Shown here one piece after another: positions 24,955-57,616 of a DNA stretch of 64,000 nucleotides (position 1 is its first letter; each line of letters opens with the position of its first letter). The notes beneath the pieces were generated by a model. It ran no database searches, was not told the origin of the DNA, and saw only the letters and a list, made by a program, of their open reading frames with translations. The position numbers were made by a program, and so were the translations under genes. The DNA is from an uncultured Pseudomonadota bacterium (GTDB taxonomy: Bacteria; Pseudomonadota; Gammaproteobacteria; Steroidobacterales; Steroidobacteraceae), in contig CAIYVA010000094.1 of NCBI GenBank assembly GCA_903929455.1, positions 1 through 64,000 of the forward strand, in the 5' to 3' direction.

Positions 24955-25488
24955 ATGACGCGTCTCACAATTCTCGAATATCCGGATCCTCGTTTACGCC
25001 GCATGGCCGTGCCGCTTGCGCGCGTTGAAAAACATCACCAACAGCTCATCGATGACATGTTTGAAACCATGTACGACGCGCCCGGTGTCGGCTTGGCTGC
25101 GCCGCAGGTCGACGCACCGATCCGTTTGTTGGTTATGGATGTCTCAGACAATAACGATCAGCCCTTGGTGTTGATCAATCCAGACATCTTGGCTCGATCA
25201 ACTCCTGGAACGATGCGCGAAGGTTGCTTGTCGGTGCCAGGTTATTTTGAAGAGGTCGATCGTTCACACGAGATTACGGTGCGCGCGCTCGATCGCCTGG
25301 GTAAGCCATTTGAATTGCAGGCAGAGGGATTGCTGGCTGTCTGCATTCAGCATGAGATGGATCACCTCGATGGCAAGTTGTTCGTTGATTACTTGACGGA
25401 GCTTAAGCGCTCGCGCATCCGCAAGAAGCTCGAGAAAGAGCAACGCCAGCGCAGTCAACCTAAATCGTCGCGTTCGCCGGCGTTATAA
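24955..25488 (+). CDS. def: Peptide deformylase
   Basis: A metallohydrolase of 177 residues that removes the formyl group from nascent N-terminal methionine. All three motifs are present: [16 protein letters not shown] (Cys ligand) and QHEMDHLDG (HExxH ligands). The C-terminus has a basic tail. It begins the plus-strand operon def-fmt-rsmB-DUF4390-ntrY-ntrX, with 3 bp to fmt. Confidence 0.97.
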
Positions 25489-25491
25489 GGC

Positions 25492-26448
25492 GTGCCATTA
25501 AAAATTGTTTATGCAGGCACCCCTGAATTCGCAGTGCCCGCGCTTGATGCGCTCGTGGCAGCAGGTCACCAGTTGGTGGCTGTATATACCCAACCAGATC
25601 GTCCGGCGGGACGCGGACGTGTCTTAACGGCTTCGGCGGTGAAAGCTCGGGCACTGGCGCATGGCTTGGTGGTTCATCAGCCACCGACGCTGCGTGATGC
25701 CGCGGCACTACACGAATTCGTGCTCAGCGCGCCAGATGTGGCGGTGGTTGCGGCGTACGGCTTGTTGTTGCCGCCAGAGATCTTGCAGTTGCCAAGGCTG
25801 GGTTGTTTAAATATCCATGCATCGCTCTTGCCGCGTTGGCGCGGCGCGGCACCCGTACAACGAGCCATTCTGTCGGGCGACAGCGATACGGGTGTATCTA
25901 TTATGCAGATGGACGAGGGCTTAGACACCGGCGCTGTATTGAGTCATCGATCGATCCCAATTGGGGCCCGTGAGACGAGTGCGGAACTTACCGAGCGGCT
26001 CGCGGTCTTAGGAGCGCAGGCGCTACTGTCTGTATTAGGAGAGTTGACGGCAGGCCATGCACTTAGCCAACCGCAACCGACAGAAGGCGTAACCTATGCG
26101 CGCAAGCTGGATAAAAAAGAGGCCCAAATTAACTGGCAGCTATCGGCGCGAGACATTGATCGTCAGGTAAGGGCATTCGTGCCCTGGCCTATCTGCGAAA
26201 CGCGTTGGCGCGGTGCGCAACTAAGAATTCACGCCGCAGAGCCTGTTGCGGGCGAATCATTGGGCGTTCCCGGGGAGATTGTGTCGGTAGGACCGAATGG
26301 TGTCGAAGTTGCGACTGCGGATGGCCGCTTGTGTCTAAAGCGGGTTCAGTTGGCGGGCCGTACGATGGTGTCTGCGCATGAGTTTGCATCGGCTGAGCTC
26401 AAGCGGGGCTCTTTGATTGGTGAGCAATTTACAGGCTTTGCCTTATGA
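25492..26448 (+). CDS. fmt: Methionyl-tRNA formyltransferase
   Basis: Formylates initiator Met-tRNA using 10-formyltetrahydrofolate; 318 residues. The N-terminus IVYAGTPEFAVPAL and the formyl-transfer site LNIHASLLPRWRGAAPVQRAI (catalytic Asn, His; Asp in MDEGLDTGAVL) are conserved, and a C-terminal OB-like domain follows. The start is GTG at 25492, three bases after the def stop. Its stop overlaps the rsmB start by 4 bp. Confidence 0.97.
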   Translation: MPLKIVYAGTPEFAVPALDALVAAGHQLVAVYTQPDRPAGRGRVLTASAVKARALAHGLVVHQPPTLRDAAALHEFVLSAPDVAVVAAYGLLLPPEILQLPRLGCLNIHASLLPRWRGAAPVQRAILSGDSDTGVSIMQMDEGLDTGAVLSHRSIPIGARETSAELTERLAVLGAQALLSVLGELTAGHALSQPQPTEGVTYARKLDKKEAQINWQLSARDIDRQVRAFVPWPICETRWRGAQLRIHAAEPVAGESLGVPGEIVSVGPNGVEVATADGRLCLKRVQLAGRTMVSAHEFASAELKRGSLIGEQFTGFAL

Positions 26449-27773
26449 CGGATGGCGTTTCCAGTCGAGTGTCAGCGGTGCGGGTGATCGCGGCCGTCAT
26501 AGGCAAGGGGCAAACCTTGGAGGCTGCGCTATTGGCGGCTCGTCCGTCGCTTGCTGATCGCGCTATGGTGCAATCGTTGGTGTTTGGCGTCCTGCGCTTT
26601 GGCCATCGACTGTCACGTGTTGCCACTGCGTTAGTGAGTCGATCGTGGGATTCACAGACACCAGAGCTGCGAGCGTTACTGCTGCTCGGTCTTTATCAAT
26701 TGGAATACAGCGGTACGCCGCCGCACGCAGCAGTCAATACTATAGTTGCAGCCGCCCGATTAGTGGGTGAGCAAAAAGCGGCAGGCATGGTGAACGCTTG
26801 CTTACGTCGTTATCAACGAGAGCGCGCACGTTTGTTAGACCTCGCGGATGAGACGCTGGCGGGACGTACTTCTCATCCGATCTGGCTAGTCGAGGCGTAT
26901 CAGAGAGACTGGCCTGCCTATGCGGTACCGATGCTAGCGGCTGCCAACGAGCATCCGCCTCTCACGCTGCGCGCCAATGTGAGGAAGGGGAGTGTCGAAG
27001 CGCTCGCAGCGGAACTAGCAGCTGACGGTCATGTGACGATGCGCGTGCCAGGTGCTCCCGATGCACTCATTTTGGAAACACCAATCGATGTCCGTGGGCT
27101 ACCGGCTTTTATAGAGGGGCGTTGCTCAGTTCAAGATGCCGCAGCGCAGTGCGCCGTCCCTCTATTGGCTGCACGGGCTGGTATGCGCGTGCTCGACGCC
27201 TGTGCCGCTCCTGGCGGCAAGACCGGTCATTTGTTAGAGGCCACACCGGGGCTGACGGAAGTCGTGGCATTAGATATTGATCAAGGTCGCGCCGGCCGAA
27301 TTCAGGAAAATTTAACTCGCCTCGGACTGGAGGCTACCATTCTGATTGGTGACGCCACGGATCCCAGTCTGCTGTTGGGGCAGCGTTTTGATCGCATCTT
27401 AATAGACGCGCCTTGCTCTGGTACGGGTGTGATCCGCAGGCATCCTGATATTAAGTGGCTGCGTCGCCCAGGCGACCTACAAGCCCTTGCTGATCGGCAA
27501 CTGGCGCTGCTTGCAACCTTGTGGCCGCTGCTGGCTCCCGGAGGCCGCTTGTTGTATGCGACCTGTTCGCTCTTAAAATCAGAGAACCGCCAAGTGATCC
27601 GTGCCTTCTTTAGGCAATTCCCGGATGCGATCGATGTGACCGAATCTGCTAGCCTTGCCATTGGAGACATGGCGCATACCGAGCCTGCCGATGGCCCAGG
27701 TATTGCTTTACTGCCCGGTATGGCGGGGGTCGATGGATTTTATTATGCGTGCCTTGAGCGCCGTTGTGATTGA
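26445..27773 (+). CDS. rsmB: 16S rRNA (cytosine(967)-C5)-methyltransferase
   Basis: A SAM-dependent m5C methyltransferase of 442 residues (Fmu/Sun). It has an N-terminal NusB-like RNA-binding domain (about 1-140), then the catalytic domain with the SAM motif VLDACAAPGGKTGHL, the aspartate motif LIDAPCSGTGVIRRHPDIKW with the motif-IV Cys, and the catalytic Cys in YATCSLLKSEN. ATGA overlap with fmt shows coupling. The DUF4390 gene begins inside its last codons. Confidence 0.96.
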   Translation: MTDGVSSRVSAVRVIAAVIGKGQTLEAALLAARPSLADRAMVQSLVFGVLRFGHRLSRVATALVSRSWDSQTPELRALLLLGLYQLEYSGTPPHAAVNTIVAAARLVGEQKAAGMVNACLRRYQRERARLLDLADETLAGRTSHPIWLVEAYQRDWPAYAVPMLAAANEHPPLTLRANVRKGSVEALAAELAADGHVTMRVPGAPDALILETPIDVRGLPAFIEGRCSVQDAAAQCAVPLLAARAGMRVLDACAAPGGKTGHLLEATPGLTEVVALDIDQGRAGRIQENLTRLGLEATILIGDATDPSLLLGQRFDRILIDAPCSGTGVIRRHPDIKWLRRPGDLQALADRQLALLATLWPLLAPGGRLLYATCSLLKSENRQVIRAFFRQFPDAIDVTESASLAIGDMAHTEPADGPGIALLPGMAGVDGFYYACLERRCD

Positions 27774-28401
27774 TCTGTTAACACACGCGCGACGACTGGT
27801 TGTGGCCACCCTGCGCGTGCCTGCCATTGGTACCGTGCGGCTGTTGTTTTGTGTCGCGATCCTGTTCGCTCAACCGGTCTCCGCTGCCGACGTTTTATTA
27901 GTCGATGACGGCGCTCCCTTCGATGTTCGCTCTGCGTTCATTGAGCCGCATGAACATGTTTATCAACTGAACGCCACCCTGGATCTGTCTTTGTCGTCAT
28001 CTGCTGTGCGCGCGCTTGCTGATGGTGTTCCCGTGACCATTGAGCTCGATCTCACGATTGTACGCAATCGCCGATATCTGACCGACGTGCAGATCGGCTC
28101 ACTCGTGCAACGCTGGCAGGTACGTTACGATGCGTTATCTGAAAGGTACTTGGTCAAAAATCTAAACTCTAGTCAACAAACGTCGCATGCCACATTGCAG
28201 GCTGCGATTGCAGAGCTGTCAATCATTCAGAGCTTGCCGATTTTAGATGAGTCACTGATGCAGAAGGGCAAACAGTACGAGGCCTCACTGCGTGTTATGA
28301 CGACAGTCGATGGCGGGCTTCCCACTGCTCTTAAGTACGTGATGTTTTGGATAGACTGGCGGCGCATCAGTGATTGGTATACCTGGACCGTACGGCCATG
28401 A
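27745..28401 (+). CDS. DUF4390 family exported protein
   Basis: A protein of about 218 residues with an N-terminal basic region and a hydrophobic segment ending in AQPVSAADV, which looks like a signal peptide or anchor, followed by beta-rich sequence (LNATLDLSLS, VPVTIELDLTI). DUF4390 proteins are found beside rsmB and ntrYX in beta- and some gammaproteobacteria and have no assigned function; a periplasmic partner of NtrY is a plausible guess. The start is uncertain: ATG 27733 or 27745, or GTG 27766 overlapping the rsmB stop, are all in frame. The stop overlaps ntrY by 4 bp. Confidence 0.8.
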   Translation: MRALSAVVIDLLTHARRLVVATLRVPAIGTVRLLFCVAILFAQPVSAADVLLVDDGAPFDVRSAFIEPHEHVYQLNATLDLSLSSSAVRALADGVPVTIELDLTIVRNRRYLTDVQIGSLVQRWQVRYDALSERYLVKNLNSSQQTSHATLQAAIAELSIIQSLPILDESLMQKGKQYEASLRVMTTVDGGLPTALKYVMFWIDWRRISDWYTWTVRP

Positions 28402-30698
28402 CCGACCGTCACCTCGCGGCACTTGAGGCGCCCCGTTCGGTGACGGCATCAGGCAGAGGACGGCGTCTGCTATTTACAATATTGCTAGGTGTCGGTGCAT
28501 CTGCAGCAATCGCATCTCTCGCCTTGCTGACGGCGTCTGCGCAAGACGCTCACTTTATAAAAGAGTTGCAGCCACTTTTACTTGCCTTCAACGTACTTGC
28601 GGCCTGCGTGCTGATCTCACTTATTAGTCGAAAGCTGTATGTGCTGATCAAGGATTACCGTCAACAGGTTCCCGGTTCTCGCATGAATGCGCGCGCCGTA
28701 CGTATGTTTAGCCTGCTGGCACTTGCGCCCATATTGGTTGTCTATCTATTTTCCGTCAATGCGATCAACCGGGGCATTGACAGTTGGTTTGATGTCAATA
28801 TTGGTGCAGGTCTAGATAATGCCTTGGCGCTTTCACGCGCTGCACTGTCGTTGAGAACGCGCGAATTTGGCGCCAACACCAAGGCTCTTGCGGCTGATTT
28901 AGCTGAAACGAGCAATCTTGAGTTGGTCGCGACTTTAGATCGCTATCGGCGGGTGGCCGGTGCATCGGAGCTAACCGTCATCGGTGATCATAGCCGCATC
29001 ATCGCGGCGAGCACAGATTTCTCCGCCGCATCTATTCCCACGCTGCCCGCTCGAGAGGTGTTACTACAGGCGCGACAAGGGCAAGTTTATCTAAGTTTAG
29101 ATCCGGTGCAGGGCGGAGGCTATCGTGTCTTAACAGCGCTGACTGTTGGCAATGACTCCTCAGGCGAGCCTCGTATCTTAGTGGCCAGCTACAGTGTCCC
29201 AGAGCAACTAGGCGCGCTGGCCGACGGTGTGCAAACCGCGTATGCCCAGTATGGGCAGCGCACCTACCAACGTCCTTATCTTAAATCTATCTTTGTACTG
29301 ACGCTTACGATCGTTCTTTTGCTGTCTGCACTAGGTGCTGTGTACGGCGCCTTTTATTGGGCGGCGCGTTTAGCCAAGCCTGTGCAAGACCTTATTGAAG
29401 GGACGCGCGCGGTCGGAGCGGGTGATTTAGACCGAACGCTCGAGCGCGCCTCGGACGACGAAATGGGGTTCTTGGTACACTCATTCAACAACATGACGCA
29501 GCGGTTAGCGCGTGCACGGTCAGATGCTGAGGATAACCGTAGCGCTGTCGATCAAGAGCGCGCGCGCTTAGCAGTGATTCTTGCGCGCATTTCGACAGGG
29601 GTCATATCGATTGATCGCGATTTCACGCTACGTACCGCCAATGCCGCCGCCTCGCATATTCTAGGCGTCAACTTACAGCCGTCGGTCGGCGTATCGTTGC
29701 AAGCCCACGCACCTGATAAGTCACTGATCTCGCAGTTTATTGCTGCGTGCCAACAACAGGTTGACGTCGGGCCTGCTGACTGGCGTATGCCTGTGCAGTT
29801 AGCCACTGACTCTGGCCGTCGTGAACTCATGGTGGCTTGCACTGAGTTGCCAGCGACCGAGGGCTCTGTCGCAGGTCTTGTCATCGTGTTCGATGACATC
29901 ACCGAGCTGCTAAAAGCGCAGCGAGATGCCGCGTGGGGCGAGGTCGCTCGCCGCTTGGCCCACGAAATCAAAAACCCACTGACCCCCATTCAACTATCAG
30001 CTGATCGCATGCGCCGTCGCCTCACCGGACAACTGAACCCGCATGATGCGGAGATATTAGAGAGCGCTACTAGCACCATCGTTCATCAGGTTGAGGCCAT
30101 GCGACAGATGGTGAATGCTTTTTCTGAATACGCTCGAGCGCCCGCGATGGACGTGGCGGCTTTTGACTTTAATCAGCTGGTACGAGAGGTGGCTGAGCTC
30201 TATCGCGCGCAAGGATTCGCGGCCGATGCGGGGCACATAATACACGTGGGCTTAACGCTCGATGAGGGCATCGGCCTGCTATTAGCCGACCGGGGTCGCG
30301 TACGGCAAATTTTAAATAACTTACTGACCAACGCTTTTGAAGCAGTCGACGCACGAGACGGTGCGTCCATTGCGATTGAGACTCATCTGGTGATAACGGA
30401 TGAGCACCCAGTAGCGGAATTAACTGTTACAGATAATGGACCCGGATTCCCAGCCGGTGTGATTGGGCAAGCGTTTGATCCCTATGTGACCACCAAGGCG
30501 AAGGGCACCGGATTGGGTCTCGCTATTGTTAAAAAAATTGTAGAAGAGCATGGTGGCCGTATCGAAGCGGATAATGTGACGGCGGGTGGGGCGCGGGTGC
30601 GCGTATGGTTGCCGTGTCCGGAACTAGGTCGTAGCCAAGGTCCCCTATCATCTGTTCGCGACGCGCGAACGACGGAGCGAAGGAGAGAACATCGATGA
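28398..30698 (+). CDS. ntrY: NtrY-type sensor histidine kinase
   Basis: A membrane sensor of 766 residues. Three hydrophobic segments lie near the N-terminus (within about residues 15-125), then a periplasmic domain of about 165 residues, a further helix (about 295-320), HAMP (LIEGTRAVGAGDLDR), a PAS domain, HisKA and HATPase_c. Catalytic boxes look intact: H box RRLAHEIKNPLTPIQLSADR, N box NNLLTNAFEA, G1 DNGPGFP and G2 GTGLGLAIVKK. The ATG at 28398 overlaps the upstream stop. It is coupled to ntrX. NtrYX systems respond to nitrogen or redox/oxygen signals in proteobacteria; the signal here is unknown. Confidence 0.93.
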   Translation: MTDRHLAALEAPRSVTASGRGRRLLFTILLGVGASAAIASLALLTASAQDAHFIKELQPLLLAFNVLAACVLISLISRKLYVLIKDYRQQVPGSRMNARAVRMFSLLALAPILVVYLFSVNAINRGIDSWFDVNIGAGLDNALALSRAALSLRTREFGANTKALAADLAETSNLELVATLDRYRRVAGASELTVIGDHSRIIAASTDFSAASIPTLPAREVLLQARQGQVYLSLDPVQGGGYRVLTALTVGNDSSGEPRILVASYSVPEQLGALADGVQTAYAQYGQRTYQRPYLKSIFVLTLTIVLLLSALGAVYGAFYWAARLAKPVQDLIEGTRAVGAGDLDRTLERASDDEMGFLVHSFNNMTQRLARARSDAEDNRSAVDQERARLAVILARISTGVISIDRDFTLRTANAAASHILGVNLQPSVGVSLQAHAPDKSLISQFIAACQQQVDVGPADWRMPVQLATDSGRRELMVACTELPATEGSVAGLVIVFDDITELLKAQRDAAWGEVARRLAHEIKNPLTPIQLSADRMRRRLTGQLNPHDAEILESATSTIVHQVEAMRQMVNAFSEYARAPAMDVAAFDFNQLVREVAELYRAQGFAADAGHIIHVGLTLDEGIGLLLADRGRVRQILNNLLTNAFEAVDARDGASIAIETHLVITDEHPVAELTVTDNGPGFPAGVIGQAFDPYVTTKAKGTGLGLAIVKKIVEEHGGRIEADNVTAGGARVRVWLPCPELGRSQGPLSSVRDARTTERRREHR

Positions 30699-32056
30699 GC
30701 ACTCCCCGAATTCTGGTTATAGACGATGAAGCTGATATTCGTAGCACGCTGCGTCAGGTACTCAGTGATGAGGGCTACACTGTTGAGGTGGCTGCGGACG
30801 CGGCAGCGGCACGGTCCGCGAGCATCGCGAACCCCCCCGACGTGATTTTTCTAGACATATGGATGCCTGATGTGGATGGCATCACGCTGTTGCGCGAGTG
30901 GCAAGCGCAGGGCGCTTTACGCTGTCCGGTGGTGATGATGTCGGGTCATGGCACGGTCGAGACTGCCGTGGAGGCGACCCGTTTGGGCGCATTCGACTTT
31001 GTCGAGAAGCCGCTGTCGCTCGCTAAACTACTCAGTGTCGTCGACCGAGCCCTTAAGGCATCGTTAAGCCAGCGGGGCTCGACGCTTGGATTTGTGCGCA
31101 CTGAGCTTGCGCCGGTGGGTAAAAGCCAGGTGATCCAGCAACTGCGCGTGCGAATGCAGCAATTGGCCAGTACGCGAAGTGGCGTGCTACTGGTTGGAGA
31201 AGTCGGTAGTGGTCGTGATGCATACGCGCGGTACTTGCACACCTTGAGTCCATTCAGTAGCGCTCCTTTTGTCACAGTGATCAGTGGCTCACTGAACGAC
31301 AGTGATGTGGCTAGACATCTGCGGGGCACCGAGCGCGATGGGCGCGTGGAGCCTGGCTTGTACGAGCAGGCGGCTGAGGGAACCCTGTACCTCAGTGGTG
31401 TCGATGGCCTGTCGCCGGAAGCTCAGCGTGTGCTTCTGGCCGATATTCAGGCCGGCGCATACACGCCCGTGAATAGCCTGCAGTCCAGACCGCTGGCTGT
31501 GCGCTTCGTGTGTAGTGTGTTGAGTAACACTGAAACGGCTACTGCCAGTCAATTTCTGCGCGATCTGATCGCTTATCTCAATTTGGTGACTGTCTCTGTA
31601 CCACCCCTGCGTGAGTATGCTGAGGATGTGCCTGATTTGCTGCGCCACTATGTTGATCAAGTGGCAGACGAGTATCGGCTGCCACTGCGGCGCTTCGGTG
31701 TCGCCGCGCAGAATAGATTGCGCAATTACCCATGGCCCGCCAATGTTCGCGAGTTACGCAATTTGGTTCATCGCCTGTTAGCCTCAGGTGGTGGCCCAGA
31801 AATTAGTTTGGCGGAGCTAGAAGGTGAGTTGACGCCGCAAGTGCATAGCCAAGAGGCGCTTGTGAAGCAAGACTTGCTCTCTCTTCCTTTGCGTGAAGCC
31901 CGCGAGGCATTCGAGCGCGCCTATCTACAGCAGCAGTTGCTGCTGTGTAATGGGAAAGTGGGCTTGCTTGCTAAGCGCGTTGGGATGGAGCGAACCCACC
32001 TGTATCGTAAGCTACGCGCCTTAGGTGTCGACTTTCGTCAGGGCTCCGAAGAGTAG
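30695..32056 (+). CDS. ntrX: NtrX-like response regulator with degenerate AAA+ domain
   Basis: A 453-residue regulator in the NtrC-family layout. The receiver is intact (phospho-acceptor D54 in IFLDIWMPD, Lys105 in EKP), and a C-terminal Fis-type HTH is present (LLAKRVGMERTHLYRKLRALG). The central AAA+ region is altered: the Walker A position reads GEVGSGRD (168-175) without the Lys, the Walker B position GTLYLSGVD (229-237) lacks the DE pair, and no GAFTGA loop occurs between them. It should not hydrolyse ATP or remodel sigma-54 polymerase, so it may act as a DNA-binding regulator of sigma-70 promoters. The frame is unbroken, and the start overlaps ntrY by 4 bp. Confidence 0.9.
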   Translation: MSTPRILVIDDEADIRSTLRQVLSDEGYTVEVAADAAAARSASIANPPDVIFLDIWMPDVDGITLLREWQAQGALRCPVVMMSGHGTVETAVEATRLGAFDFVEKPLSLAKLLSVVDRALKASLSQRGSTLGFVRTELAPVGKSQVIQQLRVRMQQLASTRSGVLLVGEVGSGRDAYARYLHTLSPFSSAPFVTVISGSLNDSDVARHLRGTERDGRVEPGLYEQAAEGTLYLSGVDGLSPEAQRVLLADIQAGAYTPVNSLQSRPLAVRFVCSVLSNTETATASQFLRDLIAYLNLVTVSVPPLREYAEDVPDLLRHYVDQVADEYRLPLRRFGVAAQNRLRNYPWPANVRELRNLVHRLLASGGGPEISLAELEGELTPQVHSQEALVKQDLLSLPLREAREAFERAYLQQQLLLCNGKVGLLAKRVGMERTHLYRKLRALGVDFRQGSEE

Positions 32057-57137: not shown

Positions 57138-57152
57138 GCGCACCATTGGTGC
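57138..57152. promoter_or_regulatory. NtrC-binding site 2 (enhancer) upstream of PII gene
   Basis: GCGCACCATTGGTGC within TTGCGCACCATTGGTGCAA. It matches GCAC-N7-GTGC with one change (GCGC), with TTGC/GCAA flanks on both sides. The centre is about 85 bp upstream of the predicted transcription start. Confidence 0.65.
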
Positions 57153-57203
57153 AAAAACGCCGCAAATAACACTTAACTCATTGATTTTGTTATCTGTACC
57201 GGA

Positions 57204-57219
57204 CGGCACGAAAACTGCA
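57204..57219 (+). promoter_or_regulatory. Sigma-54 (-24/-12) promoter of PII gene
   Basis: CGGCACGAAAACTGCA keeps the invariant GG and GC at the correct spacing and matches TGGCACG-N4-TTGCA at all but two positions (CGG for TGG, CTGC for TTGC). Transcription would start near 57230, giving a leader of about 48 bases before the ATG at 57278. With the two NtrC boxes it forms a complete nitrogen-regulated promoter. Confidence 0.68.

Positions 57220-57250: not shown

Positions 57251-57616
<366 letters not shown>

Follow-up and report, generated by a model that had tools for sequence, protein, structure and literature searches.

Degenerate AAA+ core of the response regulator NtrX in a Steroidobacteraceae bacterium and stepwise loss of its ATPase residues among gammaproteobacterial relatives

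The response regulator NtrX of Brucella abortus has NtrY as its partner and reportedly binds ATP but does not hydrolyse it. Neisseria gonorrhoeae uses NtrX and is not known to have a working rpoN. The use of NtrX in N. gonorrhoeae is described in passages of PMC12697260. NtrYX is a widespread system, which passages of published papers link to envelope, respiration and cell-cycle genes. PDB entries 5m7n and 5m7p are, by their titles, crystal structures of B. abortus NtrX with ATP and ADP; the title of the structure paper calls it an unusual NtrC-family member. An NtrX without the GAFTGA motif is mentioned for Caulobacter in a passage of PMC10274813 and for Thioalkalivibrio thiocyanoxidans in a table of PMC5744179. 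Phosphorylated NtrX of Sinorhizobium meliloti binds CAAN2-5TTG sites and requires D53, as stated in excerpts of PMC9223101. The series of NtrX proteins described below bears on how NtrX regulates without GAFTGA.

The B. abortus protein (PDB: 5m7n, 5m7o and 5m7p) is the closest solved relative of the NtrX studied here, both in sequence (E 1e-77) and in fold. The two share the REC-AAA+-HTH architecture and the absence of GAFTGA, but B. abortus NtrX keeps the Walker A Lys and the Walker B Asp-Glu, which the protein studied here does not have. GAFTGA-less NtrC from Caulobacter and Rhodobacter capsulatus is of the NtrC type and, as far as passages of PMC10274813 tell, carries a loop-1 deletion and acts at sigma-70 promoters without the sigma-54 loop; there, ATP binding is reported to matter in R. 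capsulatus, and binding plus hydrolysis in Caulobacter, whereas our NtrX has no residues for hydrolysis. The canonical activators NtrC1, FleQ and PspF have the AAA+ core fold in common with it, but all motor motifs tested are absent from our protein. Proteins of the VpsR/VspR type are activator-like as well, and VpsR (PDB: 7v2b) has, by its PDB record, a novel dimer and c-di-GMP binding; its identity to our NtrX is only 22-24%, and nothing found here points to c-di-GMP. In the open-licence literature, at the level of listings, abstracts and passages, there was no report of Walker A loss in a gammaproteobacterial NtrX, nor of an NtrX retained in the absence of sigma-54 in the lineages f13 and G275 treated below.

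The ntrYX locus and its degenerate AAA+ core

The window, the whole stretch of 64,000 nucleotides that was analysed, comes from contig C94 of a 2.44-Mb assembly in 244 contigs (95.6% complete). Its ntrX frame is open and shares its first 4 nt (ATGA, 30695-30698) with the end of ntrY. Three of the ORFs upstream of ntrYX are presumably def, fmt and rsmB, names that are our own reading (Table 1).

Table 1. Features of the ntrYX locus, in window positions
Feature	Position	Strand	Evidence
def-fmt-rsmB-DUF4390, conserved genes upstream of ntrYX	24955..28401	+	DUF4390 by Pfam
ntrY, sensor kinase; NtrY_N, HAMP, PAS, HisKA, HATPase and catalytic boxes present	28374..30698	+	
ntrX, response regulator with degenerate AAA+ core, 453 aa	30695..32056	+	ORF list, Pfam domains
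ntrX receiver domain, aa 6-116, D54 and K105 intact	30710..31042	+	PF00072 E 4e-28
ntrX AAA+ alpha/beta core, aa 141-305, without ATPase residues	31115..31609	+	PF00158 E 3e-22; predicted AAA+ fold
ntrX Walker A position GEVGSGRD (K to R), aa 168-175	31196..31219	+	alignment
ntrX loop-1 position LRGTERDGRVEPG, aa 209-221, no GAFTGA	31319..31357	+	alignment
ntrX Walker B position GTLYLSGVD, aa 229-237; D to S, E to G	31379..31405	+	alignment
ntrX arginine-finger segment FLRDLIAYL, both fingers replaced (L288, Y294)	31553..31579	+	alignment
ntrX AAA+ lid, aa 306-387, with conserved block AAQNRLRNYPWP	31610..31855	+	PF25601 E 7e-18; conservation
ntrX Fis-type HTH, aa 403-442	31901..32020	+	PF02954 E 4e-6

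An earlier note on this DNA had described a normal receiver and Fis-type HTH, Walker positions without Lys and Asp-Glu, a missing GAFTGA, and an unbroken frame coupled to a complete NtrY. Alignment and domain searches bear out each of these points: the receiver residues D10, D11, D54, S83 and K105 are all in place, and the H, N, G1 and G2 boxes were all found in NtrY. Both arginine-finger positions, on which the note was silent, are lost too. Of the features that mark a bEBP (GAFTGA, Walker A Lys, Walker B Asp-Glu, arginine fingers) the protein has none; the Pfam name of its central domain is nevertheless 'Sigma-54 interaction domain'.

The best NCBIfam family for the protein is the NtrX equivalog NF051870, with 341.9 bits against a cut-off of 600. 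In trees it groups with NtrX and not with NtrC, and its gene lies directly behind ntrY; by sequence it is best regarded as a gammaproteobacterial NtrX orthologue outside the equivalog as defined. That cut-off does not span gammaproteobacterial NtrX: among 249 genomes of the phylum, 65 had a match above it, none of them from the window's class, and no gammaproteobacterial genome reached 600 bits.

The AlphaFold model predicts the AAA+ fold with confidence (mean pLDDT 88, pTM 0.61), and FleQ (PDB: 6jdl) aligns to the modelled core over 244 residues (Z 27.4, rmsd 2.4 A). The domain arrangement was left unused in this model and in a second one, of an f13 NtrX (see below), because of their low pTM (0.61 and 0.54).

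Gene order is conserved among relatives, with ntrY directly upstream of ntrX in all 72 of the related loci that have 2.4 kb or more of sequence on that side. Regular expressions recovered the NtrY H box in 81 of 84 sequences, the three misses being f13 proteins that by eye read AHEINNPL; the G1 and G2 patterns each missed 2 of 84, and a strict N-box pattern missed 20 of 84. The catalytic residues are present in both partners.

Distribution and order of the losses

NtrX from the order, the class and the phylum was compared. The order contributed 70 further sequences (69 and L077), drawn from the roughly 90 genomes that have a clear orthologue among 98 searched, the window's own included; 77 came from elsewhere in the class, out of 172 genomes with a match. 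Another 30, probably from Alphaproteobacteria, represent the phylum outside the class; being the best-scoring 30 of the 65 genomes over the NF051870 cut-off, they lean towards the classical state. Conversely, 80 named loci were selected as matching the window protein best and hence lean towards its state; the Walker A Lys was found in one of them. The named relatives comprise MAGs of Steroidobacteraceae and Woeseiaceae, Steroidobacter agaridevorans and Thioalkalivibrio sp. XN8. Rows L001-L006, L036, L235, L237, L238 and L236 (a repeat of L030) were left out before counting, and L269 is the same gene as L075.

A GAFTGA-type motif occurs in none of 258 NtrX read, a figure that is not a count of independent species since the named loci partly repeat other genomes (e.g. 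L144, L054). As proteins from outside Gammaproteobacteria are included, the absence is a known family trait, general to NtrX. The ATPase residues follow a gradient. Outside the class, the Walker A Lys, the Walker B Asp, the Walker B Glu (or Asp) and both arginine fingers are kept in 30 of 30 proteins. In the class outside the order, the Walker A Lys is found in 65/77, the two Walker B positions in 26/77 and 70/77, and arginine fingers 1 and 2 in 59/77 and 12/77; the corresponding values for the order, the window protein set aside, are 1/70, 2/70, 30/70, 62/70 and 10/70. The sole Walker A Lys in the order (L075) sits in an otherwise broken P-loop (GTDKEE). The degenerate state is accordingly not peculiar to this protein or its lineage.

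Other activators of the order retain their motor. Twenty taken from among the best-scoring non-NtrX matches in its genomes all have the Walker A Lys, the Walker B DE and both arginine fingers (FRxDLxxR), with a GA/SFTGA-type loop in 19 of them, and the one other activator found in the window genome is canonical, GAFTGA included. The motor loss therefore belongs to NtrX rather than to the genomes, in agreement with the claim that it is specific to NtrX in a genome that keeps sigma-54; rpoN is present there.

A tree was calculated from 248 NtrX sequences and one canonical activator as outgroup, with catalytic columns masked and 10 repeated rows removed beforehand. The window protein falls within a group of 133 tips (support 0.995), hereafter the K-less clade, with R at the Walker A position in 127, P in 4, T in 1 and K in 1. 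The FastTree topology implies 8 losses of the Lys (9 changes, one an apparent regain in L075), and an IQ-TREE reconstruction of 81 rows, likewise masked, gives 8 changes; with modest backbone supports, eight is a working number. Six of the eight losses led to Arg only, and the seventh is the K-less clade itself. A nine-row clade of Sedimenticola, Thiodiazotropha and kin has R at Walker A with DE intact, which indicates that the change to Arg can precede the other losses. From the K-less clade towards the window, the Walker B Asp drops from 21 of 118 at one node to 0 of 90 at the next, and Glu or Asp at the second position from 38 of 90 to 1 of 51. The ATPase residues of NtrX have been lost in steps inside Gammaproteobacteria, a loss that is ancient and recurrent, with about eight losses of the Lys, mostly to Arg.

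These losses are accompanied by uneven constraint. On a fixed topology, the tree length of the K-less clade relative to other NtrX was 0.51 for the receiver, 0.45 for the lid, 0.19 for the HTH and 0.97 for the AAA+ core; in 20 column resamplings the core ranged over 0.90-1.05 and the largest value for any other domain was 0.58. Relative to receiver and lid, the core of this clade has evolved about twice as fast as in other NtrX, and the HTH is the slowest part. The five receiver residues D10, D11, D54, S83 and K105 are found in 133 of 133 members. Domain-wise dN/dS was below 1 in all 36 disjoint pairs of relatives, several of which join distant sequences and probably understate dS; more weight is given to the 12 pairs with dS of at most 0.42, in which it was 0.09-0.75 for the core, 0.01-0.27 for the receiver, 0-0.18 for the lid and 0-0.10 for the HTH. 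The core has thus lost part, not all, of its constraint relative to the other domains, and some remains, as both a dN/dS below 1 and the P-loop, a conserved island, indicate.

Lineages without detectable rpoN

Within the window's order, rpoN was found in 125 of 147 genomes. Neither PF04552 nor PF04963 gave a match in any of the ten genomes of one family, f13. These genomes measure 1.1-1.6 Mb and are 77-92% complete, and a missing rpoN would be weak evidence in any one of them; the strength lies in ten out of ten. All ten have an NtrX match, in one case (G648) in two pieces. PF00158 found nothing in seven; in the other three it matched NtrX itself only, apart from one sub-threshold match in G095. 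The nine one-piece proteins keep LDIWMP in the receiver and MERTNLYRKL in the HTH, and a P-loop consensus, a Walker B DE and an arginine-finger motif occur in none of them. In a model of an f13 NtrX (pLDDT 81, pTM 0.54) the alpha/beta core remains compact. The order def-fmt-DUF4390-ntrY-ntrX-argS-priA is kept in two f13 loci (L285 and L286), in which no rsmB match was found. The f13 tree leaves out L278, a gene of G064, which does not belong to the family, and L279, a piece. In three f13 loci (L284-L286), NtrY has lost the PAS region and keeps the H box with its phosphoacceptor His, the G1 box and related boxes.

Comparison of the 172 genomes that have an NtrX match with a set of 223 genomes yielded nine candidates with NtrX and without rpoN. 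One, G275 (98% complete), was kept. Neither rpoN nor any other activator gave a match in this genome, whose NtrX branches outside the K-less clade (node support 0.71). The protein has GEPGCEFL in place of Walker A and LFMNPLD in place of Walker B, its receiver and HTH remain, and ntrY adjoins its gene. Five candidates (G273, G281, G282, G290 and G352) were rejected, being 58-89% complete with rpoN present in a genome of the same family, as were G136, G183 and G306, each with at least two strong canonical activators, where rpoN is probably missing from the assembly.

In three tested genomes of another family of the order, f12, neither rpoN nor NtrX was found. Loss of rpoN is apparently family-wide in f12 and f13, of which f13 keeps NtrX and the three tested f12 genomes are without it. 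NtrX was also missing from G030 and G049 (genus g17; 100 and 96% complete) and from G003 (same genus as the window; 85%), where only paralogues of about 30-36% identity were found; either the whole regulator was lost or, for G003, an assembly gap is responsible. Given its absence from these genomes and from f12, NtrX is dispensable in some lineages.

Probable mode of action and alternatives

We consider it likely that the window NtrX is a phosphorylation-driven, sigma-54-independent DNA-binding switch with its core as a scaffold. This reading has its direct basis in the sequence states, the pattern of stepwise loss and constraint, the conservation of the operon and the retention of NtrX where no rpoN was found. 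The strongest evidence comes from f13 and G275, two lineages without detectable rpoN that keep NtrX with its P-loop destroyed, in support of the sigma-54-independent switch suggested in the earlier note. S. meliloti NtrX and GAFTGA-less NtrC, as described in the excerpts of PMC9223101 and PMC10274813, serve as precedents. Against this reading counts the presence of rpoN in most genomes of the order.

From this basis we infer a mechanism in which NtrY would phosphorylate D54 of NtrX, and the changed receiver and dimer state would alter binding of the Fis-type HTH to its DNA sites at promoters of the housekeeping sigma factor, sigma-70. NtrX would then repress or activate by promoter occupancy, without an ATP-driven motor or sigma-54, the AAA+ core, placed between receiver and lid-HTH, being kept as a structural spacer. 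As for its history, GAFTGA would have been absent before the split between the sampled NtrX of Gammaproteobacteria and those from elsewhere in the phylum. Next to go would have been arginine finger 2, the Walker A Lys (to Arg) and the Walker B Asp, the order of these middle steps being read from the counts, and then, in the window's lineage, the Walker B Glu and arginine finger 1; the whole P-loop would have gone last, in the two lineages without sigma-54. More speculatively, and with considerable doubt, it is possible that an ATP-driven sigma-54 activator has been reverting, repeatedly and stepwise, to a plain phospho-switch like OmpR or PrrA, with an Arg P-loop that became a ligand pocket or allosteric joint and was lost where sigma-54 was lost, the switch being kept.

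Only the motor may have been lost and the pocket kept: an Arg P-loop could still bind a phosphorylated ligand such as ATP or ADP, without hydrolysing it, and thereby tune dimerisation or DNA binding. The P-loop of the K-less clade is strongly conserved in its glycines, E169 and R174 (G168 in 131, E169 in 132, G171 in 133, G173 in 125 and R174 in 127 of 133), with E169 present in 132/133 inside versus 78/115 NtrX outside the clade. The predominance of Arg among the Lys replacements, the B. abortus crystals with ATP and ADP (by the entry titles) and the reported need of R. capsulatus NtrC for ATP binding rather than hydrolysis (in a passage of PMC10274813) point the same way. However, the Walker B Asp and Glu have not been retained, nor has arginine finger 2; the P-loop has gone from f13 and G275, both of which keep the regulator; and Arg readily replaces Lys, and glycines of a P-loop can have a structural role. 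We regard such nucleotide sensing as rather unlikely and retain it because the conserved P-loop with Arg is otherwise unexplained. For the scaffold, the earlier note is supported in the main, its 'only' less securely: the G-E-x-G-x-G-R loop is under strong constraint in the main clade, so that the core may have a role beyond keeping the domains apart.

It is improbable to a high degree that NtrX is still coupled to sigma-54, in mixed oligomers with NtrC or in competition for NtrC sites. The window genome does have rpoN and one canonical activator, NtrC-like by eye, and rpoN is common in the order, but NtrX has neither loop 1 nor arginine fingers with which to act in a ring, and it persists in f13 and G275, where no rpoN or canonical activator was found. 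The idea that the gene has recently begun to decay into a pseudogene in a small-genome MAG is hardly credible and was rejected, as the earlier note had also judged: the window protein has lost more than most relatives (both fingers, the Walker B Glu), but its frame is open, its Walker A and Asp state is common across the order (69 of the 70 further NtrX are without the Lys), dN to its sister L007 (78% identical; dS saturated) is low in receiver (0.10) and HTH (0.03) against 0.27 in the core, dN/dS is below 1 in 36 of 36 pairs, and intact close relatives beside premature stops in this lineage were sought among the 70 and not found.

The graded series, from all ATPase residues outside the class through partial sets in Gammaproteobacteria and none in the order to f13 and G275 with neither P-loop nor detectable sigma-54, is a natural mutant set with which to find out what parts an activator requires. 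It is also a warning for annotation, given the Pfam label of the central domain and a 2025 study of Acidithiobacillia that, in passages of its text, counts NtrX among sigma-54 activators (PMC12194929).

Matches to a sigma-54-like pattern over the window are near chance (55 versus 44 expected; 6 of 100 shuffles reach 55). At 57139-57219, a GG-N10-GC element, CGGCACGAAAACTGCA, and a palindrome, CGCACCATTGGTGCA, lie upstream of a gene (57278-57616) whose product, read by eye, we take to be PII-like; the palindrome resembles the consensus of an NtrC site. Both elements are consistent with sigma-54/NtrC control of that gene. For CAAN4TTG the window shows no significant enrichment (27 matches versus 18.4 +/- 4.8; 27 is reached in 5 of 100 shuffles), and no match lies directly upstream of def. 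In the lid, the block AAQNRLRNYPWP (aa 337-348, window 31703-31738) is near-invariant in the K-less clade and less so elsewhere, and is possibly a new interface.
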